A DNA stretch of 49,287 bases from an uncultured Paenibacillus sp. (GTDB lineage Bacteria; Bacillota; Bacilli; Paenibacillales; Paenibacillaceae). The translations under genes were made by a program, and so were the position numbers. The stretch covers positions 1-49,287 of the forward strand of contig CAKMKL010000229.1 in assembly GCA_927443375.1 (NCBI GenBank), read 5' to 3'. Positions 1,071-47,017 of this stretch are shown one piece after another. How positions within the stretch are numbered: the first letter of the stretch is position 1; every line of letters begins with the position of its first letter. Under the pieces are notes generated by a model. The model was given only the letters and a program-made list of their open reading frames with translations, had not been told where the DNA came from and did not search any database.

Positions 1071-1123
1071 ATTATTTTAGCCGCGCGGCGGTTTTATAGC
1101 AGCATATCATATAAGCGGACACT

Positions 1124-1162
1124 AGAAGGCCGTTCCTCCGTCAGGACAGGAGCGGCCCTTCT
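1124..1162 (+). other. imperfect hairpin between argG and argH
   Basis: AGAAGGCCGTTCCTCC and GGACAGGAGCGGCCCTTCT can pair with small bulges to give a stable stem just before the argH ribosome binding site (AGAGGAGG, 1173-1180). No T-run follows, so this is not a normal terminator. It could be an mRNA processing or stability element between the two cistrons. Confidence 0.4.
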
Positions 1163-1189
1163 ATCGTCCATCAGAGGAGGAATTAACAG

Positions 1190-2605
1190 GTGAGTAAGCT
1201 TTGGGGCGGACGGTTTACCAAAGGAACAAACAAGCTGGTGGAGGAATACACAGCATCCATCGGATTTGATAAGGCACTGGCCGAAGAGGATGTGCAGGGA
1301 AGTCTGGCTCATGTGACGATGCTGGGCAAATGCGGTATTCTGCCGCAGGAGGATGTCGAGACCATTAAGGCCGGGCTGAACAAGGTACTGGGTAAGGTTC
1401 GGGCAGGCGAGATTGAATTCTCCGTGGCGGACGAAGATATTCATATGAATATCGAAAAGAATCTGATCGGGGAAGTCGGTCCGGTAGGCGGCAAGCTGCA
1501 TACAGGACGCAGCCGCAACGACCAGGTAGCGACGGACATGCATTTGTATCTCCGGAACCGGGTAGTGGAGTTCGTGGGACTCTTGCATGAACTGCAGGAA
1601 GCCCTGATTGAACAGGCCAAAGATAATGTGGAGACGATTGTGCCGGGATACACGCATTTGCAGCGCGCACAGCCCATCCTGTTCGCCCATCACCTGCTGG
1701 CTTACGTGTCCATGTTCCGCCGCGATGCGGAACGCCTGACGGACAGCTACAAGCGGATCAATGTGCTGCCGCTGGGTGCCGGGGCGCTTGCCGGAACGAC
1801 GTTCCCGATTGACCGTCATTTTGTAGCAGAGCAGCTTGGTTTTGATAGTGTCTATGAGAATAGTCTCGATGCTGTCAGCGACCGCGACTTCATTGTCGAG
1901 TTCCTGGCTAACGCAGCGCTGATCATGACCCACCTGTCCCGCCTTAGTGAAGAGCTCGTGCTGTGGAGCAGCACGGAATTCAGCTTCGTAGAGCTAGACG
2001 ATGCGTTCTGCACCGGCAGCAGCATCATGCCGCAGAAGAAGAACCCGGACGTGCCGGAACTGGTGCGCGGCAAAACAGGCCGCGTCTACGGCAACCTGAT
2101 CGGTCTCCTGACCGTACTCAAATCGCTGCCGCTGGCGTACAACAAGGATATGCAGGAAGACAAAGAGGGCATGTTCGACACAGTAGCCACGCTGACAGGT
2201 GCGCTGCAGCTGTTCGCACCGATGATCTCCACTATGAAGGTGAATAAAACCCGGATGCGTGAAGCGGTTAATACCGACTTCTCCAATGCGACCGATATCG
2301 CTGACTTCCTGGTCGGCAAGGGACTCCCTTTCCGCCAGGCTCATGAGGTGATCGGCAAAACCGTGCTGTATTGTATCAATGAAGGCAAATTCCTGCTCGA
2401 TCTGACGCTGGATGAATTCAAGCAGTTCTCACCGCTATTCGATGACCAGATTTATGCTGTTCTGCAGCCTGAGGCTGTAGTGAACGCCCGTAACGTCTAC
2501 GGCGGCACAGCGACTGTACAGGTTAAAGCGGCGATTGAACGGGCTGAAGCTTCTCTGCTGGAAGCGGGTAAATGGGTAGCACAGCATAATAGCAGTGCCG
2601 AATAA
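1190..2605 (+). CDS. argH: argininosuccinate lyase
   Basis: Splits argininosuccinate into arginine and fumarate, the last step of arginine synthesis; a cytoplasmic homotetramer of the fumarase/aspartase superfamily. The start is GTG at 1190, 9 bases after AGAGGAGG. The 471-residue product has the usual family length. Visible marks are the N-terminal SKLWGGRF, the [10 protein letters not shown] substrate-binding segment (about residues 103-112), the [11 protein letters not shown] segment with the conserved histidine, and the superfamily signature loop [12 protein letters not shown] at residues 276-287, which carries the catalytic serine. It follows argG and is closed by a strong terminator at 2645-2690. 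Nothing is missing or disrupted. Confidence 0.98.
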
Positions 2606-2644
2606 ACAGTCAGCCTGAAACTTCACTAATCATGACCTAAACCA

Positions 2645-2690
2645 AAGACTGTCCTCACCGTATCGATTACGGGAAGGACAGTCTTTTTTT
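2645..2690 (+). terminator. intrinsic terminator of argGH
   Basis: AAGACTGTCC pairs with GGACAGTCTT around a roughly 20-base loop that itself partly pairs, followed by a T-run. It lies 40 bases after argH and just before the convergent esterase gene. Confidence 0.9.
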
Positions 2691-2705
2691 ACAGCACCGG
2701 TCTGA

Positions 2706-3491
2706 TTATTTACCTAGCGGCAGCCATTTCAGCACATCTTGGATTTTGGTATCCCAGTAGCCCCACTCATGTGCGCCCGGACCTTCTTCATAGGTTAGAG
2801 ACAGTGAAGTCTTGGCACAGGCTTTGCGGAAGCTCTGATTATTTTCATACAGGAAATCCTCCGTGCCGCAGCATTGGTAGAGAAGCGGTTTAGGTCCCTT
2901 GGAGCGGTCTACTTCCTTGAGCAGCCACAGCAGATCATTGGGAGTACCGTCGATATCCTCTTGCCCGAAAATAAGCTCATACTCCCGGCTCTTCTGGGAA
3001 GGGTCTTCCCAGTTGATGAAATCATGCGCCATATCCAGCGCCCCGGAAAGGCTTGCCGCAGCGGCAAAAGTCTCCGGCTTGCGCAGACCCAGCTTAAACG
3101 CCCCATAACCGCCCATGGAGAGACCGGCTACGAAGTTATCCTCACGTTTTGGCGACAGCGGGAAGAACGAGCGTGCGAGCGCCGGCAGCTCCTCGCTGAT
3201 AAAGGTCCAGTAATTGCCCCCGCCCGCCATATCCGTATAAAAGCTGCGGTGCACCTGCGGCATGACCACGGCGATACCCAGCTCTGCCACATACCGCTCA
3301 ATCGAGGTCCGGCGCAGCCAGATAGAGTCGTCATCCGATAAACCGTGCAGCAGGTAGAGGGTTGGGTGAAGATCTCCTTTTTTGACATTGCTGAGACCAA
3401 TTTGCGTAGTCGTCTGCTGCGGCAAAATAACCGTCATTGAGGTGCTTAATCCGAGCACTTCGGAATAAAATTTGCATTCTATTAAAGCCAT
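2706..3491 (-). CDS. alpha/beta-hydrolase esterase (tributyrin esterase / esterase D-like family)
   Basis: Predicted cytoplasmic serine carboxylesterase of the PF00756 family, similar in layout to the tributyrin esterase EstA of lactic acid bacteria. The 261-residue product has the oxyanion-region motif [10 protein letters not shown] (about 46-55), the nucleophile elbow GLSMGG with Ser125, a likely acid Asp212 in GTEDFLY, and His241 in GAHEWGYWD, so the catalytic triad is complete. No signal peptide is seen. The ATG at 3491 follows AAGGAGGATG at a good distance. The gene stands alone, convergent with argH; its natural substrate cannot be told from sequence (short-chain esters or S-formylglutathione-like compounds are possible). 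Confidence 0.85.
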
Positions 3492-3580
3492 GGATACATC
3501 CTCCTTTTAGCACAAATGATAGCACAGCGCGAAACCGATATACATAGTAGAAATCTCTAGAATAATTATGCCTAATAGGA

Positions 3581-3610
3581 TTGCTGGGGCAACTAATGAA
3601 AGAATATAAT
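3581..3610 (+). promoter_or_regulatory. candidate sigma-A promoter of the minor pilin operon
   Basis: TTGCTG, an 18-base spacer and a perfect TATAAT, about 78 bases before the first minor pilin start. The -35 matches only 3 of 6 consensus bases, so an activator may be needed. Confidence 0.55.
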
Positions 3611-3687
3611 GGGAATAGGTAGAAAGATTCAGATCGGTGCAGGAAATAGGACTTATGACAGGCAGAACAGGATAAGGAGCGAACCGG

Positions 3688-4272
3688 ATGCCTTTAAGGG
3701 ATAACCAAAAAGCGTTATGGAACAAGGAAGAGGGGGGATTTACTTTAATTGAGGTGCTGGCAGCTATCGTAATTTTGTCGATAGTGTCACTGGTGCTGAC
3801 CTCCTATTTCACCAACGCCATGACTTACTCCAAGTCAAACCAGAACAAGACAATTATGGTCAATCTTGCGCGGAACGCGCTATTTTATATGGAGAAGCAG
3901 GATTTTGAGAAAATGCAGGAGTTTTTCGTGACTCAAGATTATTCGCTTTCTGCCGATGTATGTCGCATAGATGCATGTGATGATGATAGTAGTCAAGAAG
4001 GAAATGCATATCAACAAGCTTTTAATACGGAATCGCTGGCCCATGTCCTCCACCCCAAAGTAAACGGAATTGATTATAGCATCAATGTTGTTTATCAAAG
4101 GGGATTATTAGAGGAATCGGATTCAGAGGATGGGGCGGTTGATGAGGTAGATAAAGCGGATATCCGGGACTATCTGCTTCCGGTCAAGGTTGTGGTTACT
4201 CGTGATTCTGAGAGCGGCCCGTCCGCACCAGTAGAGGTGGAGGGATATATCAGTAATGAAGAAATTCGCTAA
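3688..4272 (+). CDS. type IV prepilin, PilV-like minor pilin
   Basis: Small surface pilin of the type IV pilus or pseudopilus. The 194-residue product has a 17-residue basic/acidic leader ending EEGG, then FTLIEVLAAIVILSIVSLVL: the prepilin peptidase cleavage site (Gly17/Phe18), the Glu at +5 (Glu22) and the hydrophobic alpha1 helix. The soluble part is acidic, with two cysteines close together (CRIDAC). It is the first gene of an operon of three pilin-like genes; its stop overlaps the next start by 17 bases. Size and position match PilV/GspI-type minor pilins, but the globular domain is not recognisable, so 'PilV-like' rests on position and N-terminus only. Confidence 0.85.
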   Translation: MPLRDNQKALWNKEEGGFTLIEVLAAIVILSIVSLVLTSYFTNAMTYSKSNQNKTIMVNLARNALFYMEKQDFEKMQEFFVTQDYSLSADVCRIDACDDDSSQEGNAYQQAFNTESLAHVLHPKVNGIDYSINVVYQRGLLEESDSEDGAVDEVDKADIRDYLLPVKVVVTRDSESGPSAPVEVEGYISNEEIR

Positions 4273-4783
4273 TGGTGTAGAAAGCGAAAACGGTTTTACT
4301 TTAATTGAATTGATCGCGGCCATTAGCCTGTTTGCAATTGTGGCCGGTATTATCGGATCTGTGACCATGTTCGGTTTTAAAAGCTATCATAAAATTACGG
4401 TTGAGAATAAGTTGCGTGATGAAGCCGACCTCGTGATGTCCTCAATTATTACAGAGCTGTATACTTACGGACCGGAGGAGATAAGGAACACAAATTCAGG
4501 AATAATGCTGCAAAGGTCAGATAGTGATCCGGTACGAATTCAAGTGGACGGCAGTGATATCGTAATCGGCGGAACACGGATTGGACCCGGAAGCACAGCG
4601 GCACTTCATTTAGAATCCGCTTTGGAGGGGTCGACTATAGCCGTCACTAAAGTAGATGAAAATATACCGAATCCCAACGCATTGTATGAATCAGGACTGG
4701 TGCAGATACAGCTTGTGTTAAGCCATGATGGTGGGGCATTGGAGGAGGAAGGGCTTAGTGTGGATAGTCAATTTGGTTTTTAA
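4256..4783 (+). CDS. type IV prepilin, PilW-like minor pilin
   Basis: Second minor pilin gene; 175 residues. The leader of 13 residues ends in Gly13, followed by FTLIELIAAISLFAIVAGII with Glu18 at +5, so it should be processed by the prepilin peptidase encoded at 16353. After the helix comes a PilW/GspJ-like pattern (GFKSYHKITVENKLRDEADLVMSSI), where a charged amphipathic helix follows the hydrophobic one. The start ATG at 4256 lies inside the previous gene behind GTGGAGGG, and its end overlaps the candidate longer frame of the next gene, so the three are translationally coupled. The assignment to the PilW/GspJ position is an inference from order and N-terminal pattern. Confidence 0.85.
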   Translation: MKKFANGVESENGFTLIELIAAISLFAIVAGIIGSVTMFGFKSYHKITVENKLRDEADLVMSSIITELYTYGPEEIRNTNSGIMLQRSDSDPVRIQVDGSDIVIGGTRIGPGSTAALHLESALEGSTIAVTKVDENIPNPNALYESGLVQIQLVLSHDGGALEEEGLSVDSQFGF

Positions 4784-6623
4784 GGGTAAAATTGTGCGTG
4801 CTGGAGAGCTAAGCCGGCGGCTTCGTTCAGAGGAAGGCTCCGCTCTTGTACTGGTCATGTTTATAGTACTACTGCTTACGATCCTTGGGATGGGCGTCCT
4901 CAGCGCAACCATCGGCGGAGCAGTACGAACGGAAACTAGGGAAAACGATGTCCAGAGCCTGCATTTGGCACAAAAGGGTCTGGATGAGTCTACGGCCTAT
5001 ATCCAAGCACGGTTAGCTAAAATGACGGATATCAATCCGGATAAGCTTGAGGATGTTCTGCGCGGTTTGGACAAGGAAGGCCTCAATGTCTCCACAGAGC
5101 TTGGTGTCGGCAGCAGTGGAATGATTGACTACATTGAATACAGAAATAAGAATATCAGCGAGCAGACGAGACAGTATTATATCGATGTAGAGGCCTCTGC
5201 ACTGGTAAACGGTGTTCAGCGTACTCTCCAGCAGAGGATTACGATCGACAGCTACCCGGACTTTCTGAAATATGCCTTTGGTTCGGAGCAGAATGTTTAC
5301 CTGAATGGAGCCCCAGTGTTAAAAGGAAATATATATGCGGGCAACAAACTAATTGTCTCTAACAGAGCCGAGTATACATACCTCGGGGATTCCAGTTTGA
5401 CGAAGGTGACAATGTTCCCGCAAATCCAACCTAATGGGACAGATACCGCAAATTCGGGAAAAGTTTATGTACAATCGCTTGAAAATATCGAATATCATAC
5501 ATTCGATCAAGCCGGGAGCGGGGGAGACCCCGAAACTTTATCTGAAAGTACTGATATGGGTCAAACCATTAGGAGTATATTGGATATTGATTTGGATAAG
5601 ATTAACATAAAAGATCAGAAGAAGTTCGTACAGATTAATGTGGAAGAATCTTTTAATGACAAACTGGTTGAAGCTACCTCGCCCGCTAATGTTATTGCGG
5701 CGGAGGAGCTTCGAAAACAGCTTGGCAAAAAAAACAAAAGCGAACTGACTACTTGGCTGCGGACAGCCAATCTCATTAGTGCAAAGCCGGTAATACCCCC
5801 TCCGGATAAGCCTTCACAGAACGACGGGGAGAGCGATGCAGCATATCAGACAAGGGTTGCCAAATATAACAACGAGCTTTTGACGTACCATCGGTTTTTT
5901 ATGGATATGAGTCAATCGTACCGAGTTGATGGTAATCTTACGATTGATGGTATCGAATACTCCGGTATAACTTTTACCGATACCGCCAAAAGAGGCAGTG
6001 CCCCAAAATGGCTTGTTATAGACGGTAACTTGAACATTATCAATAATAGACCCGATTTCGTTTCCATTAAAGCGAATATATTGGTTACTGGTAATGTGAC
6101 AATCAAAGGTAACGTATCTTTTGATTCTACGATGTTCGTACTGGGAAGCACTACGGTGGAAGATGCGGTAATTAGTGGATTGGGTGCGGGTACTGATCAA
6201 AAGGAGCTAGTTCTAATTTCTAAGGGTCCTGTGCTGGTAAACCGTATTGATGCTTTTTCCAATGCAGATCCGACTGAAATGAATGCATTTTTTTATACTG
6301 ATGACAAGGCTGATCTTTATGGTGTCGGTTCGATCTTTTGGCTGAAGGGCGGATTCTTCTCCAAAGGAGATTTGACGGTAAATGCAGTGCTGGGAAATGC
6401 GAATCAACCGCCAGGAGCCGTAAGTAGCGATGAACTGCTCTTCTCGGATCCGCAGATTACTAGTCCAAGGGCACGGGAACGTTTTCGGGTGATTTATAAT
6501 TACAATGTATACTCCGATCAGCAATCCAGTCTGCCAAGGGTCCGGAAGGTGAATATTTCTGTGAGTCCGATGAGACTCATTAGTGCTCCTCCACAATCCC
6601 CTGACGCGACTTCGACGAATTGA
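4758..6623 (+). CDS. PilX/GspK-like large minor pilin with extracellular beta-rich domain
   Basis: 621 residues from a GTG start at 4758, chosen because GGAGGAGG at 4741-4748 sits 9 bases upstream; the frame is open from an ATG at 4725. Residues 25-50 read EEGSALVLVMFIVLLLTILG: a prepilin-like Gly27 followed by a hydrophobic helix, but without Glu at +5, as in many PilX and GspK proteins that cap the fibre. After the helix comes TRENDVQSLHLAQKGLDES, typical of PilX N-termini. The rest is exported and rich in short strand-turn repeats such as DGNLTIDG, DGNLNIIN and TGNVTIKGN (about residues 390-460), suggesting a beta-solenoid. It is last in the minor pilin operon and followed by a terminator. 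Likely role: tip pilin with an adhesive or capping module; this is inference. Confidence 0.75.
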   Translation: MWIVNLVFKGKIVRAGELSRRLRSEEGSALVLVMFIVLLLTILGMGVLSATIGGAVRTETRENDVQSLHLAQKGLDESTAYIQARLAKMTDINPDKLEDVLRGLDKEGLNVSTELGVGSSGMIDYIEYRNKNISEQTRQYYIDVEASALVNGVQRTLQQRITIDSYPDFLKYAFGSEQNVYLNGAPVLKGNIYAGNKLIVSNRAEYTYLGDSSLTKVTMFPQIQPNGTDTANSGKVYVQSLENIEYHTFDQAGSGGDPETLSESTDMGQTIRSILDIDLDKINIKDQKKFVQINVEESFNDKLVEATSPANVIAAEELRKQLGKKNKSELTTWLRTANLISAKPVIPPPDKPSQNDGESDAAYQTRVAKYNNELLTYHRFFMDMSQSYRVDGNLTIDGIEYSGITFTDTAKRGSAPKWLVIDGNLNIINNRPDFVSIKANILVTGNVTIKGNVSFDSTMFVLGSTTVEDAVISGLGAGTDQKELVLISKGPVLVNRIDAFSNADPTEMNAFFYTDDKADLYGVGSIFWLKGGFFSKGDLTVNAVLGNANQPPGAVSSDELLFSDPQITSPRARERFRVIYNYNVYSDQQSSLPRVRKVNISVSPMRLISAPPQSPDATSTN

Positions 6624-6639
6624 TTAGAAAAACAAAAAC

Positions 6640-6691
6640 AAGGCTTTCCTGGATACTTCCGCATAAAACGGAATCCGGGAAAGCCTTTTTC
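6640..6691 (+). terminator. intrinsic terminator of the minor pilin operon
   Basis: AAGGCTTTCC pairs with GGGAAAGCCTT, with an inner TTCCG/CGGAA stem, followed by TTTTTC. It separates the minor pilin operon from the convergent giant gene. Confidence 0.85.
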
Positions 6692-6713
6692 TTTGGCCGA
6701 AACCGCTAGCTTG

Positions 6714-9700
6714 TCAGTAACGGTCTCCCTCATTGAGGTTGGACTGGCGGTTCAAAACAATCACTTCGATTGTTGCAGTTACAGGCTGCAGTCCTGGAAC
6801 AGAGTAAGTAACAGTAACTGTAACAGACCCCTTTTTATGCCCGGCTATGGCACCTTGTTTCGGGTTGGCGAAAGAAGCAATATCCGGTTGGCTGCTGGTC
6901 CAGGTTAAATCATTTTGGATAGATACCAAGGAAAAGGTACGCGGTATCGTCCATAATAAACTCATAAGATTAAAGGCAGGGTCGCCGACATAGATGGTCT
7001 TGCTGAACTGGCTGAACTCAAGACCATTAAGACTTGTAATGCTTACTGCGTAAGGCAGACTTGTAATTCCACTATTCTTGTCTTTTACAATGACCTGAAC
7101 CGTCTTCCCGGGAACATCCTTGGCTACCAACTGGCATTGGTTCGATCCGGTAGCTGCCTTCAGCTCGGCATATTGGCTGTCATTTGGATTTGCGAATAAC
7201 CATTCCAAATCGGTTGCATCGGCATTAACCGGTGTAAGAATAGCCGTAAGATCCAGCGACCCTCTCATCGGAACCGAGTTTCCGCTGCCGGAGATCGTCA
7301 AGGCTTCAAGAGGATTGCCTACAGTAATGATCTTGCTGGCAGGGACGTTGGTAGCCTTGTTGCTGGATACGTAAACATAAACGGTATAATCACCGGATGC
7401 AGGTGCATTAAATGTTGCGTTTTCAGCCGCGGCTGTAATATAACTGCTCACATCGTTTCCGTCCTTATCGAGGACCTTCCAAACATAAGTAATATTTTCC
7501 TCCAGAATCGTGTTATAGATGGCCTTCAATCCTAAATCAGTTTTCGGTTTAACAGGGTTATCCCCGCCCTCAATCCACAGTGTGCGGTCTTTGACGGTGA
7601 TGAGGGCTTTTCCTGTTATTCCGCTTCCATCAGTAGCAGTTGCAGTTATTTCCACGGGGCTCGTACTGACTCTCTTGCCTGTTACCTCTCCGGTTATGGA
7701 ATCAATATATACTGCTGACGGATCTGCCGAGCTCCAGCTTAATACTTTATTAGAGGCATCTGCAGGTAAAATAGATGTGGGTATAATGCGTAACGGATTA
7801 TCATTTAACAGGATATCTGTATTAGGCAACGTAATACTCTCTACCTTGATTACTGCATGCATCATCAACTGCAACGGAGAAAATAGCACCGAGCCAGGTA
7901 CAGGGTCTTCATTCAACGGAATCGTCCCACTAAACGCTGAGTACATTAAAGTTGTCATCTTAGTCACCGAACCCGCTACAACCTGACCAGTTAACTGCCC
8001 ATTCTCGAAGCTGACATTAGCGAATGGAGCTAGAAAGGTACCGTTTAAGGTGTTGCGTAACACAAGTGATTCAGCACTTGGAAAGTTATATAGAATATGC
8101 CCGGTATCGACTCCGCTAAGATTAGTGTTGAGGGCCATATTGACAGTCTTGCTTCCTGCTCCAATGTTGACCAGCACAGTAGACCCCTGAGGGACCGATA
8201 CATTCAAGCTGGTTGCCGAAGAAGTCATTTCAGCGGGAACAGTGAATATATACAGCTTGGCACCGCCAGTACCTTTTAAAGTAATCGTTCCATAGGCTGA
8301 GTTCACCGAACCATTATCGGTCAGAGCAGCCAGTTGGGTTGTCAGGTGCGTCATCCTGTCTCGCAGCGAGGCAAAGTCGATCGGAGAACCTTTCACGACC
8401 TGTCCTCTGATGGATTGGGTATCAGCATTCCCGTTATAGTAATAGTTACCGCCATACACGGCATTACCGTTTATAGTGATATTGTTATTATAGTAAAGGT
8501 TACCGCCTGCAACCAAGGCGTTCTGAGAAGAGTTACCGCTCTGATTGATATAAGCTCCCCCACCGATATTACGGAAATCAACATCTCCGCTAGCTGCGAC
8601 ACGTCCCTGGATTGAAAGGTTGCTAATTGTCACAGTATTAGAATTGTTTGGGATGCCTACGACTACCAGATTATAATCACTTCCGGCGCCAAGTAGCGAC
8701 CCGTCTGTCACAGCATGAATCTCATCATATTGCAAAGAGGCTGTATTAAATAGGAAATCTCCGGCTCTTTGCGGGGATACCGTAATTGAGAATGTAACGT
8801 CTTGGCTGGGATCGGGAACGAAGGTTTTGACACCATCTGTTCCGGTCTTTAGGGTATAACGGATATCACTTAATTTCTTTGTTACGCTGTAACCAGTGCC
8901 GGATGTCCCGGATTTGGTAATGTCTGTGGACGATCCCGTAATTTCTAGCCCAGGTGGGATTCGTTCTGTAAAGACGACGTTGGAAATGATTTGGCTGTCT
9001 CCGACATTCGCTGTAATATTCGTTTGGGTAAATGGAATTGACCTTGGCGTAATAGTATATGTTACGGCGACGTCTTGCCCGCGTATAACTTCACCATTGA
9101 CAATGCTTGCAGGCAATACCCGTGTGGCGGTTAGACTGGCTGTTGCTTGTCTGATCGTTACATTGATCGTTTTGGTAGCCAGTGCTCCATGGCTGTCCCA
9201 AGCGTTGATCTCGATCTGTAAATCTCCGCCGTTCGGAAGCGGGTTAGCAAAGGAGCGGCTAATAGTCTGTCCCGACTGCAGACTCAATCCATCCACACCG
9301 GCATTGTTAATATAGTTTCCTCCAGATTTAAAGCGAATGGAGGTCGTCAGGTTGCGGTCGTTCAAATCGAAATCTCTTGCGCTGTAATCAACTAAGATCT
9401 CATGTGTATAAGACGGGATGATGCTACCCTCTGCAGGAGCGTTTACCGTGATCTCCGGAGCGTGGTTGGCACCGACGAAAGCCCGGTACATTGTATTAAC
9501 GAAGAGCTTCTGCTCCCAGTCGGGGAACTTAATATTATTATTGATATCCCCTTTTTTGCTATGCCCTGTGCCGGAAAAGGTAATGCTGCCTACAGAATAC
9601 GTATAGAAATGGTTGTAGCTGTCATCGACATCCCGCTGGGTTTTGCCGGATTCGCTCTTAACGTTATACCATGGCACCACATCGGCCCGCTCCAAATCCA

Positions 9701-11249
9701 GCATAAAAAACTGGTCGTGCGTTTCAGCTACCGGATAGTAGGTACTGCCGGCACTGTTAAGATTGAAGGGGTATTGAGTCAGCAGACCGTTATTGACAGG
9801 AACGACCTTGGAGGATGGATTGACAGCATTGCCCCCTAAGTAAGTTCTTGAAGTCTGGCCAACCAGTGTACGGAAGTAATCGCCCCAATAGTTCAAATCG
9901 TTAGGATCATCAATATAAATCGTATCATGGGTGAGCATGATGCTTTGTTTGGTTGTGTTGGCAAAATCATAAACCGCCTGGGCGGCTTCTTTTGAAATCA
10001 TCGGGCTAGTCACACGGTCATACATATCCTGAAAGCCGAAGACAATCATGTCATAAACGCCGTTAAGACCATGTTGTGGACTGTTGGCATTCTCGCTGAT
10101 ATAGGTATTGAAATTATTCATGTTCATCGTAGAAATATAGAGCTGATAACTATTGGTATTTAGATAGGTCTGATTCATATTGAGACTATTCAGGAGCGAA
10201 CTGTCGGAACGATTCGAAGGCATAACCTGAAGCACCTTAATAATCGGCTTAACACCAGTGAAACGGATGACATCACGATCAAAGGCCTTAAGATTGGTTG
10301 AGGTGTCGGTCACCTCCAGCTTCCAGTAAAGCAGTCCTGAGTATGTATCCGGCAGTGTATAGCGAAGAGTTCCTTCAGTCGAATTCATTTCCAGCGAGGC
10401 GACCACATGATCCTCAGTCATAGGAATCGAAGAATCTACACTCATGTACAAACGGACACGGACAGGGGTGGTTGTGATGTTAGGCACGTTATCAAGTTTG
10501 ATCTTGAAGGTCATAGCATCGCCTGGCTTATAAGTATCAGTGGCATTAGTTAAATAGCTTTTAATCTCCGATTTGTTGGAAATTGTAAGCAGCGGACGCC
10601 GGACGAGCCCGGCTATATATAGTGGCGTACGGTTCTTAATCCCGGTAATCCAGTTACTCCGGATGGTGTCGGTGTCGGTGAGAAAAACAACGTTGGCTTT
10701 TCTGCCCGCAGTGGTGCGATAAATATTAAATGAATTGTAAAGCTTTCCTTGCAGATTCTTATCTTTCTCCTGGGCTTTAAAGGTTTCCTCCGGAAGAAAT
10801 ACATACAGGCCTTTATTGATGTAGTAGTCAATGATTTCTTTCGCCTTCAGATTGGTAATGTCGTTCTGGACAGCGAGCGTGTTATGAGCTTTGTCCCGGT
10901 CGGTGCTGTTCATCGCTGAAGTGCTGGAAACCAGCGTTTTGCTGAAGCTCCCCCGGCTTATGTAGATGGCATCGTACTTGCCGTCCCAGTCTTCGCGTAG
11001 CGAGACGAACTTCTTCATCGTAACCGTATCAACGGTAACATTGGAGAGTGTCTTAAGCTCGTCCAGTTCGCTGCCGTCGGATCCCAGACTGGTACTGGTG
11101 GGATCTGTTATCTCCAGAATGCGAATTGGATAGTCATTATTCGATGCCTCAACATCCGGGCTAAACAGCTGAACCAGCAAAACTGTTAATACTATCAATA
11201 CTGCGGTTACAGAAAAAAACATAAGCTTCTTCCGATTGAACATTTTCAT
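6714..11249 (-). CDS. giant secreted DUF5057 / choice-of-anchor-A-like adhesin
   Basis: 1511 residues from the ATG at 11249, which follows GGGGAG at 8 bases; the frame extends to 11315 without a better site. An N-terminal hydrophobic segment (about residues 8-27) after MFNRKK is a signal peptide or membrane anchor. Next come two alpha/beta segments, one starting PIRILEITDP and one near residue 335 (KPIIKVLQVMPSN) ending ILTHDTIYIDD, of the DUF5057 type. A cadherin/Ig-like part and a repeat-rich choice-of-anchor-A-like region follow (about 870-1110, with GGNLYYNNNITINGNAVYGG), then a bacterial Ig-like group 2 (Big2) domain (about 1135-1220), a PKD-like module and a last Ig-like domain. No LPXTG or other C-terminal anchor is present. 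It lies antisense between the pilin and motor operons; a role as pilus-associated adhesin is inferred. Confidence 0.8.
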   Translation of the reverse strand: MKMFNRKKLMFFSVTAVLIVLTVLLVQLFSPDVEASNNDYPIRILEITDPTSTSLGSDGSELDELKTLSNVTVDTVTMKKFVSLREDWDGKYDAIYISRGSFSKTLVSSTSAMNSTDRDKAHNTLAVQNDITNLKAKEIIDYYINKGLYVFLPEETFKAQEKDKNLQGKLYNSFNIYRTTAGRKANVVFLTDTDTIRSNWITGIKNRTPLYIAGLVRRPLLTISNKSEIKSYLTNATDTYKPGDAMTFKIKLDNVPNITTTPVRVRLYMSVDSSIPMTEDHVVASLEMNSTEGTLRYTLPDTYSGLLYWKLEVTDTSTNLKAFDRDVIRFTGVKPIIKVLQVMPSNRSDSSLLNSLNMNQTYLNTNSYQLYISTMNMNNFNTYISENANSPQHGLNGVYDMIVFGFQDMYDRVTSPMISKEAAQAVYDFANTTKQSIMLTHDTIYIDDPNDLNYWGDYFRTLVGQTSRTYLGGNAVNPSSKVVPVNNGLLTQYPFNLNSAGSTYYPVAETHDQFFMLDLERADVVPWYNVKSESGKTQRDVDDSYNHFYTYSVGSITFSGTGHSKKGDINNNIKFPDWEQKLFVNTMYRAFVGANHAPEITVNAPAEGSIIPSYTHEILVDYSARDFDLNDRNLTTSIRFKSGGNYINNAGVDGLSLQSGQTISRSFANPLPNGGDLQIEINAWDSHGALATKTINVTIRQATASLTATRVLPASIVNGEVIRGQDVAVTYTITPRSIPFTQTNITANVGDSQIISNVVFTERIPPGLEITGSSTDITKSGTSGTGYSVTKKLSDIRYTLKTGTDGVKTFVPDPSQDVTFSITVSPQRAGDFLFNTASLQYDEIHAVTDGSLLGAGSDYNLVVVGIPNNSNTVTISNLSIQGRVAASGDVDFRNIGGGAYINQSGNSSQNALVAGGNLYYNNNITINGNAVYGGNYYYNGNADTQSIRGQVVKGSPIDFASLRDRMTHLTTQLAALTDNGSVNSAYGTITLKGTGGAKLYIFTVPAEMTSSATSLNVSVPQGSTVLVNIGAGSKTVNMALNTNLSGVDTGHILYNFPSAESLVLRNTLNGTFLAPFANVSFENGQLTGQVVAGSVTKMTTLMYSAFSGTIPLNEDPVPGSVLFSPLQLMMHAVIKVESITLPNTDILLNDNPLRIIPTSILPADASNKVLSWSSADPSAVYIDSITGEVTGKRVSTSPVEITATATDGSGITGKALITVKDRTLWIEGGDNPVKPKTDLGLKAIYNTILEENITYVWKVLDKDGNDVSSYITAAAENATFNAPASGDYTVYVYVSSNKATNVPASKIITVGNPLEALTISGSGNSVPMRGSLDLTAILTPVNADATDLEWLFANPNDSQYAELKAATGSNQCQLVAKDVPGKTVQVIVKDKNSGITSLPYAVSITSLNGLEFSQFSKTIYVGDPAFNLMSLLWTIPRTFSLVSIQNDLTWTSSQPDIASFANPKQGAIAGHKKGSVTVTVTYSVPGLQPVTATIEVIVLNRQSNLNEGDRY

Positions 11250-11605
11250 CACCATCACTCCCCGGTTTACCGAAAAAAATGTCTTATTAGTAAAAATCCT
11301 CTTGAAAAATAGCATTTTTTGCCTAGATTCATTGTAAGATTACCTATAATATGCTATATATCATTCTAGGATAAATTTCACAGTTAGGCAATGAACGAAT
11401 GTGTAAATATAACTAAAAATTTGAGACCTGGGAATTATTTTTTAAAAATAATCTATTAAAAAATTAATAGTTTAAACTCGGCATACATATAAAATCTATC
11501 GACAAAACTAAATGAAAAATGTAGGCATTTCGCACTGTTATTAGCTTAATTTTAATAGATATTGTTCCGATAGAACTTACATACACTACACGGCATGGAG
11601 ATGAG
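11250..11605. promoter_or_regulatory. divergent AT-rich control region of the adhesin and the pilB operon
   Basis: This stretch is markedly more AT-rich than the genes beside it and holds no convincing small gene. Besides the minus-strand promoter, a weak plus-strand promoter (TTGTAA at 11332-11337, 17 bases, TATATA at 11355-11360) could serve pilB, leaving a long leader of about 240 bases. I looked for a cyclic-di-GMP-I riboswitch in that leader and did not find its conserved blocks. Confidence 0.4.
11363..11391 (-). promoter_or_regulatory. candidate promoter of the giant adhesin gene
   Basis: On the minus strand TTGCCT, a 17-base spacer and TAGAAT (5 of 6 to consensus). It would give a leader of about 105 bases before the ATG at 11249. 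Confidence 0.55.
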
Positions 11606-13276
11606 TTGGAGTTGGCGATTGTAAAAAAAAGACTTGGGGACTTGCTGGTAGAAAATGGAATTATCTCACAGGAACAGCTTCAGGAGGCACTGGTAGACCA
11701 GCGTAAATCCAAGCGCAAGCTGGGCGACCTGCTGATTTCGCAAGGGTATATGACAGAGCAACAACTGATCGAGGTACTTGAATTTCAATTGGGCATTCCA
11801 CATGTAAGCTTGTTTAAATATCAGATCGATCCTGCGATTACACAGATTATTCCGGAAAGTATGGCCAAGCGGTACCAAGTTCTCCCCTTTATGAAAGAGG
11901 GCGGGAAGCTGATGGTGGCTATGGCGGATCCGCTGGACTATTTTGCGATTGAAGATTTGCGGATGAGTACGGGCTTCCGGATCGAGCCAGCCATCTCGAC
12001 AAGGGATGAACTGCAGCGTGCCATTGCCCGCCATTACGGTATGCGCGACTCCATGAACCAGATGCTGGTAGAACTTCCGACCCAGGAAGAGATTGAAGAA
12101 ACGGAAATAACTGATGAAGATTCACCGATCGTCCGGCTTGTGAACCAGATGATCCAGCAGGCGGTTCAGCTGCGGGCATCAGATATTCATGTCGACCCGG
12201 GTGAGAATAACCTGGCGATCCGCTACCGGATCGACGGTACACTGCGGACGGAGCGGCTGATTCCGAAGCAGATGCAGGGCTTTATCACGGCCAGACTCAA
12301 GATTATGGCCCGCTTAAACATCGCCGAACGGCGTCTTCCCCAGGACGGACGAATCAAGATGCAGTTTGACTACAAGATGATCGACATTCGTGTCTCTTCA
12401 CTGCCGACGATGCATGGGGAGAAGATCGTGCTGCGGCTGTTGGATCTCAGTACCGGTGTAAAGTCAGTTGATACACTCGGATTCAGTGATAGCAATGCGG
12501 TATCGTTCAAGAACATGATTGGCCGTCCTTACGGTATTTTGCTGATTACAGGACCGACGGGAAGCGGCAAGACGACTACACTGTATTCAGCGCTCAACCA
12601 GCTTAACCAGGAGAGTGTCAACATTATCACGGTTGAAGATCCGGTTGAGTATCAGCTGGAAGGAATCAACCAGGTTCACGTTAATCCGGCTATTGGTCTT
12701 ACGTTTGCGGCAGGGCTGCGGTCCATTCTCCGTCAGGATCCCAATATTGTAATGGTAGGTGAAATCCGGGATACGGAAACTGCCGAGATTGCGGTAAGAG
12801 CATCGCTGACCGGGCACTTGGTGCTGTCCACGCTCCATACCAATGATGCCGTCAGCAGCGTATCCAGGCTCCGCGATATGGGTGTCGAACAGTACCTGAT
12901 TGCTTCGTCCTTAATCGGTGTCGTCGCTCAGCGGCTTGTACGCAAAATATGCAGTGATTGCAAGGAAAGCTATAAGCCTTCTCAACAAGAGGCGATCATG
13001 TTGGAACGGTATGGCTTGCGGGCGGACATGCTCCACCGGGGCAGGGGCTGCGGCAACTGTAACTCTACCGGCTACCGCGGCCGGATTGCTATTCATGAAG
13101 TGTTAACTATTGATGATCATCTTCGTCAATTGATTACGGATTCTGCGTCGGTGGAAGAGCTGCGCTTGGCAGCTAAAGAAGGCGGGCTGATCCAACTGAT
13201 GGAGGACGGTTTGCTTAAAGTATCGCAAGGGATGACCACATTGCAGGAAGTGCTGCGCGAGACGGTATCCCATTAA
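11606..13276 (+). CDS. pilB: type IV pilus extension ATPase PilB (GspE/PulE family) with MshEN domain
   Basis: Hexameric cytoplasmic ATPase that drives pilin polymerisation. The 556-residue product starts with TTG at 11606 or TTG at 11612 (giving MAIVKKRLGDLL); both share the GGAG at 11597-11600. Two MshEN-type motifs are visible, R9-L-G..L14-V..G18-I-I....L25...L29..Q32 and K38-L-G..L43-I..G47-Y-M....L54...L58..Q61, the known cyclic-di-GMP-binding pattern. The ATPase core has Walker A GPTGSGKTT (316-324), Walker B with GEIRD (385-389), and HLVLSTLHT. A tetracysteine zinc site is formed by C449/C452 and C482/C485. It heads pilB-pilT-pilC: 18 bases separate it from pilT. Confidence 0.95.
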   Translation: MELAIVKKRLGDLLVENGIISQEQLQEALVDQRKSKRKLGDLLISQGYMTEQQLIEVLEFQLGIPHVSLFKYQIDPAITQIIPESMAKRYQVLPFMKEGGKLMVAMADPLDYFAIEDLRMSTGFRIEPAISTRDELQRAIARHYGMRDSMNQMLVELPTQEEIEETEITDEDSPIVRLVNQMIQQAVQLRASDIHVDPGENNLAIRYRIDGTLRTERLIPKQMQGFITARLKIMARLNIAERRLPQDGRIKMQFDYKMIDIRVSSLPTMHGEKIVLRLLDLSTGVKSVDTLGFSDSNAVSFKNMIGRPYGILLITGPTGSGKTTTLYSALNQLNQESVNIITVEDPVEYQLEGINQVHVNPAIGLTFAAGLRSILRQDPNIVMVGEIRDTETAEIAVRASLTGHLVLSTLHTNDAVSSVSRLRDMGVEQYLIASSLIGVVAQRLVRKICSDCKESYKPSQQEAIMLERYGLRADMLHRGRGCGNCNSTGYRGRIAIHEVLTIDDHLRQLITDSASVEELRLAAKEGGLIQLMEDGLLKVSQGMTTLQEVLRETVSH

Positions 13277-13294
13277 GATAAGGAGGAGTCACAA

Positions 13295-14356
13295 ATGCCG
13301 ATCTCACCCAGAAATATTACACAGCTGCTGCACATGGCTTACTCCTCCCGGGCATCCGATTTGCACATTTCAGTAGGTGCGCCTCCTGTCCTGCGGATTG
13401 ACGGCAGACTTCAGAATATGGAGGGCGCAGTTGTCGGCCCCGGTGAAGCGGAACAAATGGCTTTGGATTTGCTGGGGCCGGAAAGAGAATCTGCGTTTCG
13501 TGCGGCAGGAGAGTATGACTTCTCCTATCCGCTGGAAGGAGGAGTCCGGTTCCGCGTGAACGTATACCGCCAGCGGGGAGGTATCAGTATCGCCGCCCGC
13601 AGTATTCCGGCCGATATTCCAACCTTGGAGCGGCTGTCACTTCCGCCGGTTCTTTCTTCCCTGGCGCTGAAACCGCAGGGGCTGATCCTGGTAACCGGTC
13701 CAACAGGGAGCGGCAAGTCATCCACGCTTGCTGCGATGCTCCATCATATTAACCGAAGTGAACGGAAGCATATTGTCACGCTGGAAGATCCGATTGAATT
13801 TCTGCACAGCCACGGAACCTGCATCATCGATCAGAGAGAAGTCGGGAGCGATACGTCCAGCTTCTCGAATGGCTTGCGGGCCGCGCTCCGTCAGGACCCG
13901 GACGTGATTCTCCTCGGAGAAATGCGGGATCTGGAGACGATCTCGGCAGCAGTGACCGCAGCAGAGACGGGCCACCTGGTTATGGCAACCCTGCATACCT
14001 CCGACGCGCCACAGACCATCGACCGGATTATCGATGCTTTTCCCGGGCATCAGCAGAACCAAATACGTTCACAGTTAGCTTCCGTCCTGCTCGCAGTCAT
14101 ATCACAGCGGTTATTCCCCCGTTCCCAGGGACAGGGGCGGCTCTGTGCAACTGAAATTTTGGTTAATACGCCTGCGGTTGGTAACATGATCCGGAGTGAA
14201 AAGACGCACCAGATCAAAAATGTGATGCAGACCGGGAAAGCGCTGGGCATGCACACGCTGGATATGAGCATCCGCGACTATTTGGCCCTAGGGCTCATCG
14301 ATCAGGCAGCTGCCAAGACTTATCTTGCGGAGGTGAAAGCCGATGCCGCAATTTGA
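13295..14356 (+). CDS. pilT: type IV pilus retraction ATPase PilT
   Basis: Hexameric ATPase that depolymerises the pilus and powers twitching. The 353-residue product has the usual PilT length and N-terminal PAS-like part (ASDLHISVGAPPVLRIDG), Walker A GPTGSGKSS from residue 135, an Asp/His box region (LGEMRDLETI, GHLVMATLHT), and near the C-terminus NMIRSEKTHQIKNVM, which corresponds to the AIRNLIRE block needed for retraction in PilT. The ATG follows AAGGAGGAG closely. The end overlaps pilC by 14 bases. Presence of PilT beside PilB means the filament is expected to be retractile, unlike a simple competence pseudopilus. Confidence 0.95.
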   Translation: MPISPRNITQLLHMAYSSRASDLHISVGAPPVLRIDGRLQNMEGAVVGPGEAEQMALDLLGPERESAFRAAGEYDFSYPLEGGVRFRVNVYRQRGGISIAARSIPADIPTLERLSLPPVLSSLALKPQGLILVTGPTGSGKSSTLAAMLHHINRSERKHIVTLEDPIEFLHSHGTCIIDQREVGSDTSSFSNGLRAALRQDPDVILLGEMRDLETISAAVTAAETGHLVMATLHTSDAPQTIDRIIDAFPGHQQNQIRSQLASVLLAVISQRLFPRSQGQGRLCATEILVNTPAVGNMIRSEKTHQIKNVMQTGKALGMHTLDMSIRDYLALGLIDQAAAKTYLAEVKADAAI

Positions 14357-15548
14357 GTACCAGGTCAAGACGCCAGCTGGGAAACCACTCAAAGGCAAGC
14401 TTACTGCAATGGATAAGTCGTCAGCGATGGAGGAGCTCCGCAAGCGGGGACTTACCGTTTTCTCGCTGAATGAACAGAAGAACTCTATTCTGTCGATGGA
14501 GATTTACATCGGAAATCCGGTTAAGACTATTCATTTCATTATTTACTGCCGGCAGTTCGCAACATTAATCCGGGCAGGTGTTTCGATTGTCGATGCCACC
14601 CGGATTTTAGCGGAACAGACGGACAGCAAGCCGCTGGCCAAAGCTTTGCAGGACGTCAGCTCGAACCTTCTGCGCGGCGTGGCTTTCTCTCAAGCCGTTC
14701 AGGATCACACTAAGATTTTTCCGCATTTGTTCGTCAGTATGGTGCGGGCGGGTGAGGAATCCGGTGACCTGGAAGGAACATTGGAACGGCTGGCCATGTA
14801 TTTTGAGAAACAGCATACGACTACAGAAAAAATCAAATCAGCGCTGATGTATCCGATCACAGTCGCGGTGATGGCGGTAGCTGCAGTTGTCTATCTGCTG
14901 TGGGCGATTGTCCCTCAGTTCGTAACGATGTTCGAGTCGATGGATGCGGAGCTCCCGGCAATCACCAAAATGGTGCTGGCGCTTAGTAAAAGTATCCAGG
15001 GACAATGGTATTTCTGGGGGCTTGGCATCATCCTGATTATCACTGCTTATCAGATTGCGAAACGTACGGAAAAAGGTGCCTATGCCTTGGATTACGCCAA
15101 GCTGAAGGTACCGGTGTTCGGAAAGCTGAACCAGAAGGGCTCCATTGCCCAGTTCACACGGACCTTTTCCTCACTGTACGCCAGCTCGGTGCCGATACTG
15201 CAGTCGCTGACGATCGTTGAAGAAATTGCGGGCAATAAAGTGATCGGGAAATATATCCGCAGTGCGGGCGATTCACTTAGACAGGGCAAGCCCCTGTCCG
15301 AGCCGCTGAAGAAGGCCTGGGTGTTCCCGCCACTGGTCACACAGATGATCGCTATCGGTGAAGAAACCGGGGCGCTCGATCAGATGCTGTCTAAGATAGC
15401 CGATTTCTACGAAATGGATGTCGAGAACACCGTTGACCGGCTGAAATCGCTGCTTGAACCGCTGCTGATTGCCTTTTTGGCAGGGGTTGTTGGTGTGATT
15501 GTGGCAGCGATTATGCTGCCGATGTTTAGTATTTACAGTAATATGTAG
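14343..15548 (+). CDS. pilC: type IV pilus inner-membrane platform protein PilC (GspF family)
   Basis: Polytopic platform on which PilB and PilT act. The 401 residues include an N-terminal PilC leader region (PQFEYQVKTPAGKPLKGKL) and two type II secretion F domains, the first with FCRQFATLI-like CRQFATLIRAGVSIVDA and GEESGDLEGTLERLA, the second with FTRTFSSLYASSVPILQSL and GEETGALDQMLSKIA. Three membrane segments are visible, the last being LLIAFLAGVVGVIVAAIMLP at the C-terminus. The ATG at 14343 follows GGAGGTGA and overlaps pilT, so translation is coupled. Confidence 0.95.
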   Translation: MPQFEYQVKTPAGKPLKGKLTAMDKSSAMEELRKRGLTVFSLNEQKNSILSMEIYIGNPVKTIHFIIYCRQFATLIRAGVSIVDATRILAEQTDSKPLAKALQDVSSNLLRGVAFSQAVQDHTKIFPHLFVSMVRAGEESGDLEGTLERLAMYFEKQHTTTEKIKSALMYPITVAVMAVAAVVYLLWAIVPQFVTMFESMDAELPAITKMVLALSKSIQGQWYFWGLGIILIITAYQIAKRTEKGAYALDYAKLKVPVFGKLNQKGSIAQFTRTFSSLYASSVPILQSLTIVEEIAGNKVIGKYIRSAGDSLRQGKPLSEPLKKAWVFPPLVTQMIAIGEETGALDQMLSKIADFYEMDVENTVDRLKSLLEPLLIAFLAGVVGVIVAAIMLPMFSIYSNM

Positions 15549-15577
15549 GTGGATTTTATTGAGAGGGGTGACGCGGG

Positions 15578-15596
15578 CGAAAGAATATATCTTTCG
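15578..15596 (+). other. short perfect hairpin ahead of the major pilin gene
   Basis: CGAAAGA, loop ATATA, TCTTTCG: a 7-bp perfect stem in the 127-base gap between pilC and the pilin gene. No T-run follows. It may mark an mRNA processing or stabilising site, or an operator; I found no clear sigma-A promoter in the gap. Confidence 0.35.
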
Positions 15597-15675
15597 TACT
15601 GAAGATTTTAGATAAATAAGAGCTTAGAGAAAAGCAGTCATCCACTCGTTATATTATTTTTTAGGAGGAGATCAT

Positions 15676-16173
15676 ATGTTAGCAAATGCAATTAAAAAGA
15701 GATTGAGCAAAGAAGAAGGACAGAAGGGCTTTACACTGATCGAGTTGTTGGCGGTTATCGTAATTCTGGGGATTATCGCAGTTATTGCAATTCCGTTGAT
15801 CGGAAATATCATTTCTGATGCTAAAAAAGATTCGGACGTAGCTACAGCGCGGCAGATCTATGATGCGGCGAGGTTATATATTGCTGGTGAGAAGGATGGT
15901 AAGTTCGTTGACACCACAGGTGTAACAGTTACTATTAAGGAAATGCAAACTGAAGGATATTTGGATACTAATTTAAGCCTTCCAAGTTCAAAACTTGCTA
16001 TTACAGGTGGTGTTGTTATTTTCACTCCAGCAGGTCAATTATCCTCGGTGGAAATAGCTCCAAAGCCTCTTGGTTCTGTTGATGCATCTGCTGTTCCGCC
16101 TACTGGAACTGGGACGACAGGGATAGCGGGAGGCAGTTTTACAGCTACACAAGTTCTAAGTTCAAAACAGTAA
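15676..16173 (+). CDS. pilA: major type IV pilin precursor
   Basis: Structural subunit of the pilus. 165 residues: an 18-residue leader with KEEGQKG, cleavage expected between Gly18 and Phe19, then FTLIELLAVIVILGIIAVIA with Glu23 at +5, a textbook class IVa pilin N-terminus. The soluble domain is short (about 110 residues), without cysteines, ending in a flexible Gly/Thr/Ser-rich tail. The ribosome binding site TTAGGAGGAG is the strongest of the locus, as expected for the most abundant product. A terminator follows at once, so the pilin ends the pilBTC-pilA transcript. The ComGC family is an alternative label, but the neighbours pilT and pilMNO favour a pilus. Confidence 0.92.
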   Translation: MLANAIKKRLSKEEGQKGFTLIELLAVIVILGIIAVIAIPLIGNIISDAKKDSDVATARQIYDAARLYIAGEKDGKFVDTTGVTVTIKEMQTEGYLDTNLSLPSSKLAITGGVVIFTPAGQLSSVEIAPKPLGSVDASAVPPTGTGTTGIAGGSFTATQVLSSKQ

Positions 16174-16196
16174 TGTTTTAAAAATACTGAACATGG

Positions 16197-16228
16197 AAGG
16201 AATCGGACCATTCCGATTCCTTTTTTAC
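16197..16228 (+). terminator. intrinsic terminator after the major pilin gene
   Basis: AAGGAATCGG, loop ACCATT, CCGATTCCTT, then T-run: a perfect 10-bp stem. Confidence 0.93.
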
Positions 16229-16352
16229 AACATCCCGGCTAAACTAAAAGTTATTCTGTCAGGATACCAGGTCCGTGATCCTTTACCATCTATCCAACCA
16301 TTACGTCCCTCATCCCGACAGCAATAACATCCCATACACAAAGGAATCAATC

Positions 16353-17102
16353 ATGACCACCATTATCGCTGTTTACATCACGCTGCTCGGAATGACTCTG
16401 GGCTCCTTCTATAATGTGGTTGCGCTGCGGGTACCTGCCGGGGAATCGCTCAACCATCCGCCTTCGCACTGCACCGGGTGCGGGACACGCCTGACGGCGA
16501 GGGATCTGGTACCTGTACTCAGCTGGTTGGCCAGCAAAGGGAGATGCAGGCATTGCGGTGCTAAGGTGTCTGTACTATATCCTCTAGGAGAGCTTGCGAC
16601 CGGACTTTTATTCCTGTGGTCCTACTTAGAGTTCGGCTTTACTGTCAGGGGAGTAACTGCGATCGTGTTGTCGAGCTTAGCTGTTATTGTAACGGTTGCG
16701 GATCTCAAATATATGCTGATTCCGAATAAGGTGCTGCTCTTTTTTACACCGCTCCTGCTTATGCTCACCCTGTTGAACCCGGAAGGACCGGTATGGTTAT
16801 ACCTGCTGGGTGCTGTTCTAGGAGGCGGAATTATCTTGCCTTTCGCCTGGTTCGGCGGTATGGGCATGGGCGACTTTAAGTTGTTTGCACTACTGGGGCT
16901 GGTTATTGGCTTCCCCGGCGTGTTGCTTGCCTTTTTCGCAGCTTGTCTGCTGGGTACGCTTGTTGGCGGTGCACTGCAGCTGACGGGTATCGTCAAGCGC
17001 GGACAGCCGGTTCCGTTCGGCCCTTGGCTGGCTGTAGGAGCGGTACTTGCTTACGGTTACGGCTCACAGATTATCAGCGGGTATCTCTCGCTTATTCATT
17101 AG
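16353..17102 (+). CDS. pilD: prepilin peptidase / N-methyltransferase
   Basis: Membrane aspartyl protease that removes pilin leaders and methylates the new N-terminus. The start ATG at 16353 (AAAGGA 8 bases upstream) gives 249 residues; the open frame reaches back to a GTG at 16275, but the added 26 residues look non-coding. The N-terminal domain has the GSFYNVVALRVP block and a tetracysteine zinc site (C40, C43, C65, C68). Catalytic aspartates are D117 in ADLKYMLIP and D174 in GMGDFK. Several membrane segments follow. It starts a second transcript with pilMN and pilO. Confidence 0.95.
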   Translation: MTTIIAVYITLLGMTLGSFYNVVALRVPAGESLNHPPSHCTGCGTRLTARDLVPVLSWLASKGRCRHCGAKVSVLYPLGELATGLLFLWSYLEFGFTVRGVTAIVLSSLAVIVTVADLKYMLIPNKVLLFFTPLLLMLTLLNPEGPVWLYLLGAVLGGGIILPFAWFGGMGMGDFKLFALLGLVIGFPGVLLAFFAACLLGTLVGGALQLTGIVKRGQPVPFGPWLAVGAVLAYGYGSQIISGYLSLIH

Positions 17103-17118
17103 GAGGAGTATAGCTCAT

Positions 17119-19366: not shown

Positions 19367-19403
19367 TATAGGCTAATCTTACTTCAAAAACTTGTTGATA
19401 TTC

Positions 19404-19429
19404 CGGTCCCCCTGGGGGCCGTTTTTTTT
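19404..19429 (+). terminator. intrinsic terminator after pilO
   Basis: CGGTCCC, loop CCTG, GGGGCCG with one T-G pair, followed by eight T. It closes the pilus locus. Confidence 0.88.
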
Positions 19430-19577
19430 ATGGCCATCCCCCCATAAATCCGTTTTCACACCTACATGAATTGGGTATTTTAGCTTACAAGCCGCCGTAA
19501 AGTATAAAGTAACGGTCATTGTAATGGAAGTAACTGTGATCTAGTGGATGAAGCAGAACAACAAGGAGGAATGGAGA

Positions 19578-46977: not shown

Positions 46978-47017
46978 ATGCCATCATTCGCTAACGAATA
47001 TGTTTTCTGCTGTCTCC

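Follow-up and report, generated by a model that had tools for sequence, protein, structure and literature searches.

The way in which type IV pili bring about adhesion is poorly understood (PMC6916266). In the type IVa pili of diderms, PilC/PilY1 is a large Sec-exported non-pilin protein that is encoded together with pilV, pilW and pilX and combines a conserved C-terminal carrier with variable N-terminal heads, including von Willebrand factor A (vWA) domains (PMC13190605, PMC8179133). Its C-terminal beta-propeller is catalogued as PF05567 (PMC13190605), modularity is already known for pilins as well as for PilY1 (PMC8179133), and PilC/PilY1 is reported to be absent in monoderms (PMC9934059). 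In the monoderm Streptococcus sanguinis, pilus adhesion relies on vWA or lectin modules grafted onto PilB and PilC (PMC8179133, PMC9934059), and in type IVb pili the tip minor pilin CofB presents a secreted non-pilin protein, CofJ (PMC10191384).

The locus described here lies in a 49,287-nucleotide stretch of DNA from an uncultured Paenibacillus species (contig CAKMKL010000229.1 of assembly GCA_927443375.1), referred to below as the window, and centres on a minus-strand gene at 6714-11249 that encodes a giant secreted protein of 1511 residues, P0001. It is likely that this protein is a non-pilin tip protein of a Bacilli type IVa pilus and is held there by the minor pilin PilX.

The giant gene and the pilus genes

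The conserved core of P0001 comprises its N-terminal 850 residues and not the repeat region. This DUF5057 core was searched as alignment A2 in 296 genomes of the order and in a 398-genome sample of the class. In the order, the core was found in 82 genomes and PilT in 129; all 82 core-positive genomes carry both, 2046-2884 bp apart on opposite strands, and no genome has the core without PilT (Fisher 1.1e-39, a value not corrected for relatedness). Within the window's own genus, 36 genomes have both, one has PilT alone (G252) and 14 have neither. In the class sample the core occurs in 57 of 398 genomes and PilT in 224, and all 57 core-positive genomes are PilT-positive.

Of 150 named loci encoding a relative, the best 80 were used to compare gene order; the best match is Paenibacillus auburnensis (L003), at 98%. 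In 78 of the 80, pilX lies beside the giant gene in convergent orientation, with a stop-to-stop gap of 29-4128 bp (median 113); the exceptions are a locus with pilX about 23 kb away (L039) and one at a contig edge, with pilX starting another contig (L070). On the other side of the giant gene, pilB follows within 600 bp in 71 loci, and in the remaining nine, from Anoxybacillus, Neobacillus, Peribacillus and Bacillus, pilB is found beyond pilV, with pilX still convergent beside the giant gene. The co-occurrence with pilus genes that the first-pass annotation had proposed to check is borne out by these figures.

The surroundings of 20 class-level matches were examined as well. In 17 of them the gene occupying this position, here called the slot gene, lies near pilV and pilW and mostly adjoins pilX, several regions having an extra small gene in between; pilX was uncalled in L133, where an opposite-strand open reading frame (ORF) was picked and pilV and pilW were called. 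Homologues are therefore not usually found away from pilus genes: this applies to three of the 20 regions (L135, L136 and L137), all of them weak, partial matches. Overall, the tie of the giant protein to type IV pili and their minor pilins is strongly supported.

The regions away from pili have features of their own. L136 (G472) carries eight same-strand ORFs of 656-858 amino acids (aa), two places of which weakly match the ThuA-like module described below, and L137 encodes at 6223-11886 on the minus strand an 1888-aa protein with SLH and SbsC_C domains and a weak core match; its genome, G075, has a pilus copy besides. A gene between the DUF5057 gene and pilX encodes ankyrin repeats in L122 (6636-7334, minus strand; Ank_2 1.1e-11), L125 (6700-7359, minus strand; Ank_2 0.004) and L140 (6841-7686, minus strand; Ank_2 6.1e-54), with similar-sized ORFs at this position in L123, L124, L126, L127 and L141. 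Loci whose slot protein lacks a head (L158-L165) have no ORF above 130 aa between the slot gene and pilX, and the ankyrin-repeat protein may assist the DUF5057 head.

Architecture of the giant protein and its locus

The giant protein is built from the following parts (pLDDT, predicted local distance difference test).

6714-11249, minus strand: giant secreted protein P0001, proposed pilus tip protein (ORF and leader; Pfam and NCBIfam domains)
10596-11141, minus strand: head, first alpha/beta module, residues 37-218 (model, mean pLDDT 89.3; conserved in A3)
10269-10595, minus strand: head, Ig-like module, residues 219-327 (strands in the model)
9456-10268, minus strand: head, ThuA-like module, residues 328-598, many of its polar residues near-invariant
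9159-9455, minus strand: Ig-like module, residues 599-697 (model and matches)
8700-9158, minus strand: hub beta-sandwich, residues 698-850, with relatives among the other slot proteins (profile comparisons)
7962-8693, minus strand: ice-binding-like pAdhesive_15 / choice-of-anchor A domain, residues 853-1096, absent from some homologues
7623-7772, minus strand: Big_2 Ig-like stalk domain, residues 1160-1209 (Pfam)
6717-6728, minus strand: conserved C-terminal tail GDRY, residues 1508-1511

The frame is open throughout, and its product begins with a hydrophobic, Sec-type leader whose end was judged by eye to lie near ...DVEA; the ATG at 11249 is preceded by a GGGGAG ribosome-binding site, and an alternative in-frame start lies at 11315. 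ORF, leader and domains agree with the first-pass description of an exported multi-domain protein encoded on the minus strand between the minor pilins and pilBTC-pilA; the conserved tail, the hairpin next to pilX and the N-terminal place of the conserved core formed no part of that description. Three of the modules it named exceed the cut-offs of Pfam or NCBIfam: DUF5057 (PF16480; residues 286-442, 2.5e-23, 83.5 bits against a cut-off of 27.9), choice-of-anchor A (TIGR04215; residues 872-1106, 2e-40, 139.1 bits against 29; pAdhesive_15 in Pfam, 8.7e-42) and Big_2 (best stretch 5.4e-9). The PKD module is not upheld, its match, like that of Y_Y_Y, falling below the Pfam cut-off. The proposed lack of a sortase or other C-terminal anchor stood, in that no LPXTG motif is visible by eye and Pfam finds no SLH domain in P0001; nor does Pfam find N_methyl, the class III pilin signal.

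Structure-model matching assigns ThuA-like and Ig-like folds to the core. ThuA (PF06283) is not among the Pfam matches of P0001, and the relatives L130 and L138 score 25.8 and 19.2 against a cut-off of 33.4; the fold match is clear. The DUF5057 core gave no match at E 0.01 against the sequences of solved structures. The top Foldseek rows for the core (transglutaminases and others) had template modelling (TM) scores of 0.1-0.2 and root-mean-square deviations of 20-30 and were taken as Ig-sandwich cross-matches. The source assembly, which is 72% complete, contains one DUF5057 match. Two proteins filed under the fungus Hortaea werneckii (P0008 and P0128) are 83-84% identical to proteins of the giant-gene pilus locus, and on this sequence identity the fungal assembly probably carries Paenibacillus contamination.

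The giant gene sits between pilV-pilW-pilX (3688-6623, plus strand) and pilB-pilT-pilC-pilA (11606-16173, plus strand), convergent with the former and divergent from the latter. It overlaps neither set, so that 'antisense', the term used at first, holds in the sense of opposite strand only. On the pilB side the pilus genes run on through pilD and pilM to a GspM/PilO-like gene (11606-19366).

3688-4272, plus strand: pilV-like minor pilin, Glu5 kept (N_methyl over cut-off; type_IV_pilV below cut-off)
4256-4783, plus strand: pilW-like minor pilin, Glu5 kept (N_methyl over cut-off)
4725-6623, plus strand: pilX-like large pilin without Glu5, ComZ-like fold (model, Foldseek, residue scoring)
6640-6692, no strand assigned: hairpin between pilX and the giant gene (RNA fold -31.5 kcal/mol, z -5.18 for 6624-6712)
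11250-11605, no strand assigned: divergent control region of the giant gene and pilB (sequence)
11606-13276, plus strand: pilB with MshEN domain (2.6e-24)
13295-14356, plus strand: pilT (profile match)
14343-15548, plus strand: pilC, platform protein (T2SSF)
15676-16173, plus strand: pilA, likely major pilin (Pfam and NCBIfam matches)
16275-17102, plus strand: pilD, prepilin peptidase (Peptidase_A24)
17047-18726, plus strand: pilM, long, may include pilN (PilM_2 over cut-off)
18710-19366, plus strand: GspM/PilO-like (GspM match below cut-off)

Tip pilins of the GspK/PilX/ComZ kind have a pilin leader without Glu5. Residue scoring covered 77 of 78 PilV, 78 of 78 PilW, 76 of 79 PilX ORFs and 69 of 69 PilA; Glu5 is present in every scored PilV, PilW and PilA and in none of the 76 PilX. 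In the model, PilX shows a pilin fold into which a large domain is inserted. Foldseek matches it best to ComZ, a GspK-like pilin to which its authors assigned a position at the pilus tip. The MshEN domain of PilB is of a type that binds cyclic di-GMP in other PilB proteins (PMC9765702). The hairpin at 6640-6692 is probably a terminator serving both sides. Promoter-like patterns (29 against 23.3 in shuffles) and terminator-like patterns (21 against 15.7) occur at about chance frequency, and no tandem repeats were found at window positions 1-20000. RNA control of the divergent region was considered and set aside: at gathering scores the only Rfam match in the window is a glycine riboswitch aptamer elsewhere (46892-46987, minus strand).

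Heads, tail and cassette variation

The slot encodes proteins with different heads. L082 combines hub, pAdhesive_15 and stalk without a DUF5057 head, the L131 protein is barely more than hub and stalk, L132 and L133 have CarboxypepD_reg and cadherin-like domains, and the eight proteins of L158-L165 are headless. A vWA domain occupies the slot in a first group of 13 loci, in L093, L094, L098, L099, L153 and L154 according to Pfam and in L142-L147 and L155 according to the MIDAS pattern (L148, with VWA_2 below cut-off, was left out of the vWA counts). In this group the slot gene reads in the direction of pilV wherever pilV was called; in L094 it was uncalled. L167 and L168 combine vWA with Big_2, whereas in L170 the vWA domain is accompanied by Ig domains of other kinds. 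The hub profile (residues 698-850) clearly matches P0246, P0248 and P0249 and weakly matches the vWA proteins; in a single profile-profile comparison, the hub and the segment following the vWA domain match with 91.8% probability (E 7.3e-7), against 0.1-2.4% for four other core segments. The vWA scaffold is found in 15 of the 296 order genomes, all of them PilT-positive and 14 with PilT on the same contig; its absence from a phylum sample (0 of 299) is uninformative, this sample being without a known positive.

Two genomes, G104 and G106 (L142 and L155), each carry a DUF5057-type and a vWA-type pilus locus, and because both locus types are present a single cell may make two kinds of pili that differ in their tips. 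The gene that separates the vWA slot gene from pilT in L098 (8723-9919, minus strand) encodes an SLH-domain protein of 399 aa, and similar-sized ORFs occur at this position in other vWA loci.

The slot changes together with its neighbours. Fourteen loci from two genera (g63 and g87) were compared, including a flank neighbour that was putatively labelled valS from its motifs. The slot protein of L123 is DUF5057-headed (1199 aa) and that of L159 headless (595 aa). Their flanks are nearly identical (valS-labelled neighbour 100%, 444-aa neighbour 99%, PilB 93%), whereas within the cassette identity falls to 36% for PilV, 35% for PilW, 35% for PilX and 25% over 201 aa for the slot protein. The same holds for L126 and L158, with 99 and 100% in the flanks and 94% in PilB against 50% (PilV), 44% (PilW), 48% (PilX) and 26% over 213 aa (slot protein). 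A close pair of the same type, L123 and L124, retains 97% in PilV, 98% in PilW, 93% in PilX and 95% in the slot protein (a value of 50% over 24 aa for 'o434' of L124 came from a wrongly picked ORF and was left out); a distant pair of the same type, L159 and L161, has 88-89% in the flanks, 81% in PilB, 46% in PilV, 46% in PilW, 48% in PilX and 31% in the slot protein. The pilV-pilW-pilX-giant gene block thus changes as one, with the slot gene changing fastest, and contains exactly the three minor pilins and the slot gene. Since it travels with these minor pilins, the giant protein probably serves as a sticky pilus tip that can be exchanged.

The stalk is variable, yet the C-terminus is conserved: a final Tyr is shared by 117 of 121 homologues, and the last three residues are [DN][RK]Y in 107 (two of the 121, P0026 and P0094, are cut or shifted). 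Among the 80 named loci the terminal Tyr is present in 77 (codons TAT in 40, TAC in 37) and [RK]Y in 66, compared with [RK]Y in one of 944 other ORFs of 200-1000 aa (ORFs above 1000 aa and at locus ends left out); the three without Tyr have a run of N (L007), a broken frame (L047) or Phe (L033). In the eight headless proteins the last residues are D[FL]Y. Both Tyr codons are used, and vWA genes lying in the pilV direction share the [RK]Y end, which disfavours a DNA-level cause.

Proposed role, alternatives and known systems

From these observations we infer a location at the tip, docking by the tail and ligand binding. The giant protein would be exported by Sec; PilX, together with PilW and PilV, would prime the pilus and then present the giant protein at its end, the ComZ-like terminal pilin holding it at the far end of a PilV-PilW-PilX complex. 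Hub, Ig stalk and conserved tail would form the carrier part, and a conserved tail past a variable linker would suit docking of this kind. The DUF5057/ThuA-like N-terminal head would face outward and bind a surface ligand, probably carbohydrate, and extension and retraction by PilB and PilT would convert binding into adhesion or pulling. We lean towards regarding this as a third, independently evolved kind of tip carrier in Bacilli type IVa pili, with interchangeable heads, docked by its tail and exchanged as a cassette; in full, a Sec-exported hub and Ig stalk, with a mostly aromatic tail on a ComZ-like PilX, in a pilV-pilW-pilX-tip block that is polymorphic between strains.

Several observations weigh against a pilus-tip role. 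In the order, 47 of the 129 genomes with PilT lack a core match, and in two of the 82 that have one (G060 and G229) it spans the hub only; in L131 the slot gene and pilX are three ORFs apart. The 13 vWA proteins of the first group differ in their ends, with [RK]Y in five, RW and RS in one each and NN in six, these last all from genus g36. Families f21 and f32 contributed 14 slot proteins, of which not one has a terminal Tyr and 11 end in [NT]L[NKQR]. The tail, judged from sequence, may be a docking or sorting signal that has been replaced in the f21 and f32 lineages. Finally, joint variation of the cassette could arise from gene closeness alone.

Alternatively, the giant protein could be an effector or enzyme destined for release, which the pilus machine would help across the cell wall as for CofJ or substrates of type II secretion systems, its head acting on polysaccharide. 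The 34 near-invariant polar residues of the ThuA-like module would fit a catalytic pocket, CofJ has been described as an effector that is secreted and that a trimer at the pilus tip binds (PMC10191384), and an ankyrin-repeat gene follows the DUF5057 type in some loci; however, headless and vWA versions in the same slot fit a carrier better than an enzyme, and the sole cysteine of P0001, residue 1372, lies outside the head. This alternative is unlikely.

A fixed protein of the wall or surface, which would receive the pilus or guide its passage through peptidoglycan without being one of its subunits, also has a small chance of being right. Size and Ig stalk would agree with it, as would the SLH protein encoded next to the vWA slot gene in L098 and the ORFs of similar size in other vWA loci, but no anchor domain was found in P0001 by Pfam, the heads vary strongly, and joint variation with pilV, pilW and pilX points to a minor-pilin partner. 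It is very improbable that the giant gene is a neighbour without any tie to the pilus, retained through common descent or chance: relatedness among the genomes, which the Fisher value ignores, would favour this, but presence and absence go together within one genus, and the association recurs in other gene orders and in the joint variation of the cassette. Membership of the PilC/PilY1 family, which the like genetic setting, size and modular plan and the vWA heads of both (PMC13190605) might suggest, is rejected with near certainty, because PF05567 is not among the six Pfam matches of P0001 at E values up to 1, and the C-terminal part is pAdhesive_15 and Ig-like.

If the giant protein is a pilus tip, a head-swapping partner of the minor pilins supplies the tip effector for many soil Bacilli, DUF5057 gains a role, and the concept of a single carrier that takes many effector modules becomes testable in a third, unrelated architecture. 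No mention of DUF5057 was found in the literature searched, nor of a non-pilin tip protein of Bacilli in the titles and abstract openings covered, a search that left preprints and most subscription papers outside. In a paper on the pili of Paenibacillus thiaminolyticus, the table contains no such protein and a figure legend has hypothetical proteins in the cluster; a 2011 survey of Gram-positive type IV pili gave no match for adhesin, PilY or von Willebrand.

Comparison with known systems places the giant protein beside several of them. ComZ of Thermus thermophilus is a relative of the neighbouring PilX and a DNA-binding competence pilin, whereas PilX here adjoins the gene for a non-pilin partner; a match to the tapirins of Caldicellulosiruptor likewise belongs to PilX and not to the giant protein. 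The likeness to CofB-CofJ, a tip minor pilin presenting a secreted non-pilin protein, is one of arrangement, and that system belongs to the type IVb pili of diderms. With PilB and PilC of Streptococcus sanguinis the giant protein shares modular adhesion in a monoderm, but there the module is fused to a pilin, whereas here it is part of a separate secreted protein without an N_methyl match. With PilC/PilY1 it shares Sec export, large size, a gene encoded with pilV, pilW and pilX, and a conserved C-terminal carrier under variable heads; it differs in its hub, ice-binding-like and Ig domains with no propeller found, in a gene often convergent to pilX and in a C-terminal Tyr tail in most lineages. 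The first-pass suggestion of a PilY1 counterpart therefore survives as analogy and not as homology: the giant protein, with its ThuA-like and Ig-like core, would work like PilY1 without being its homologue.

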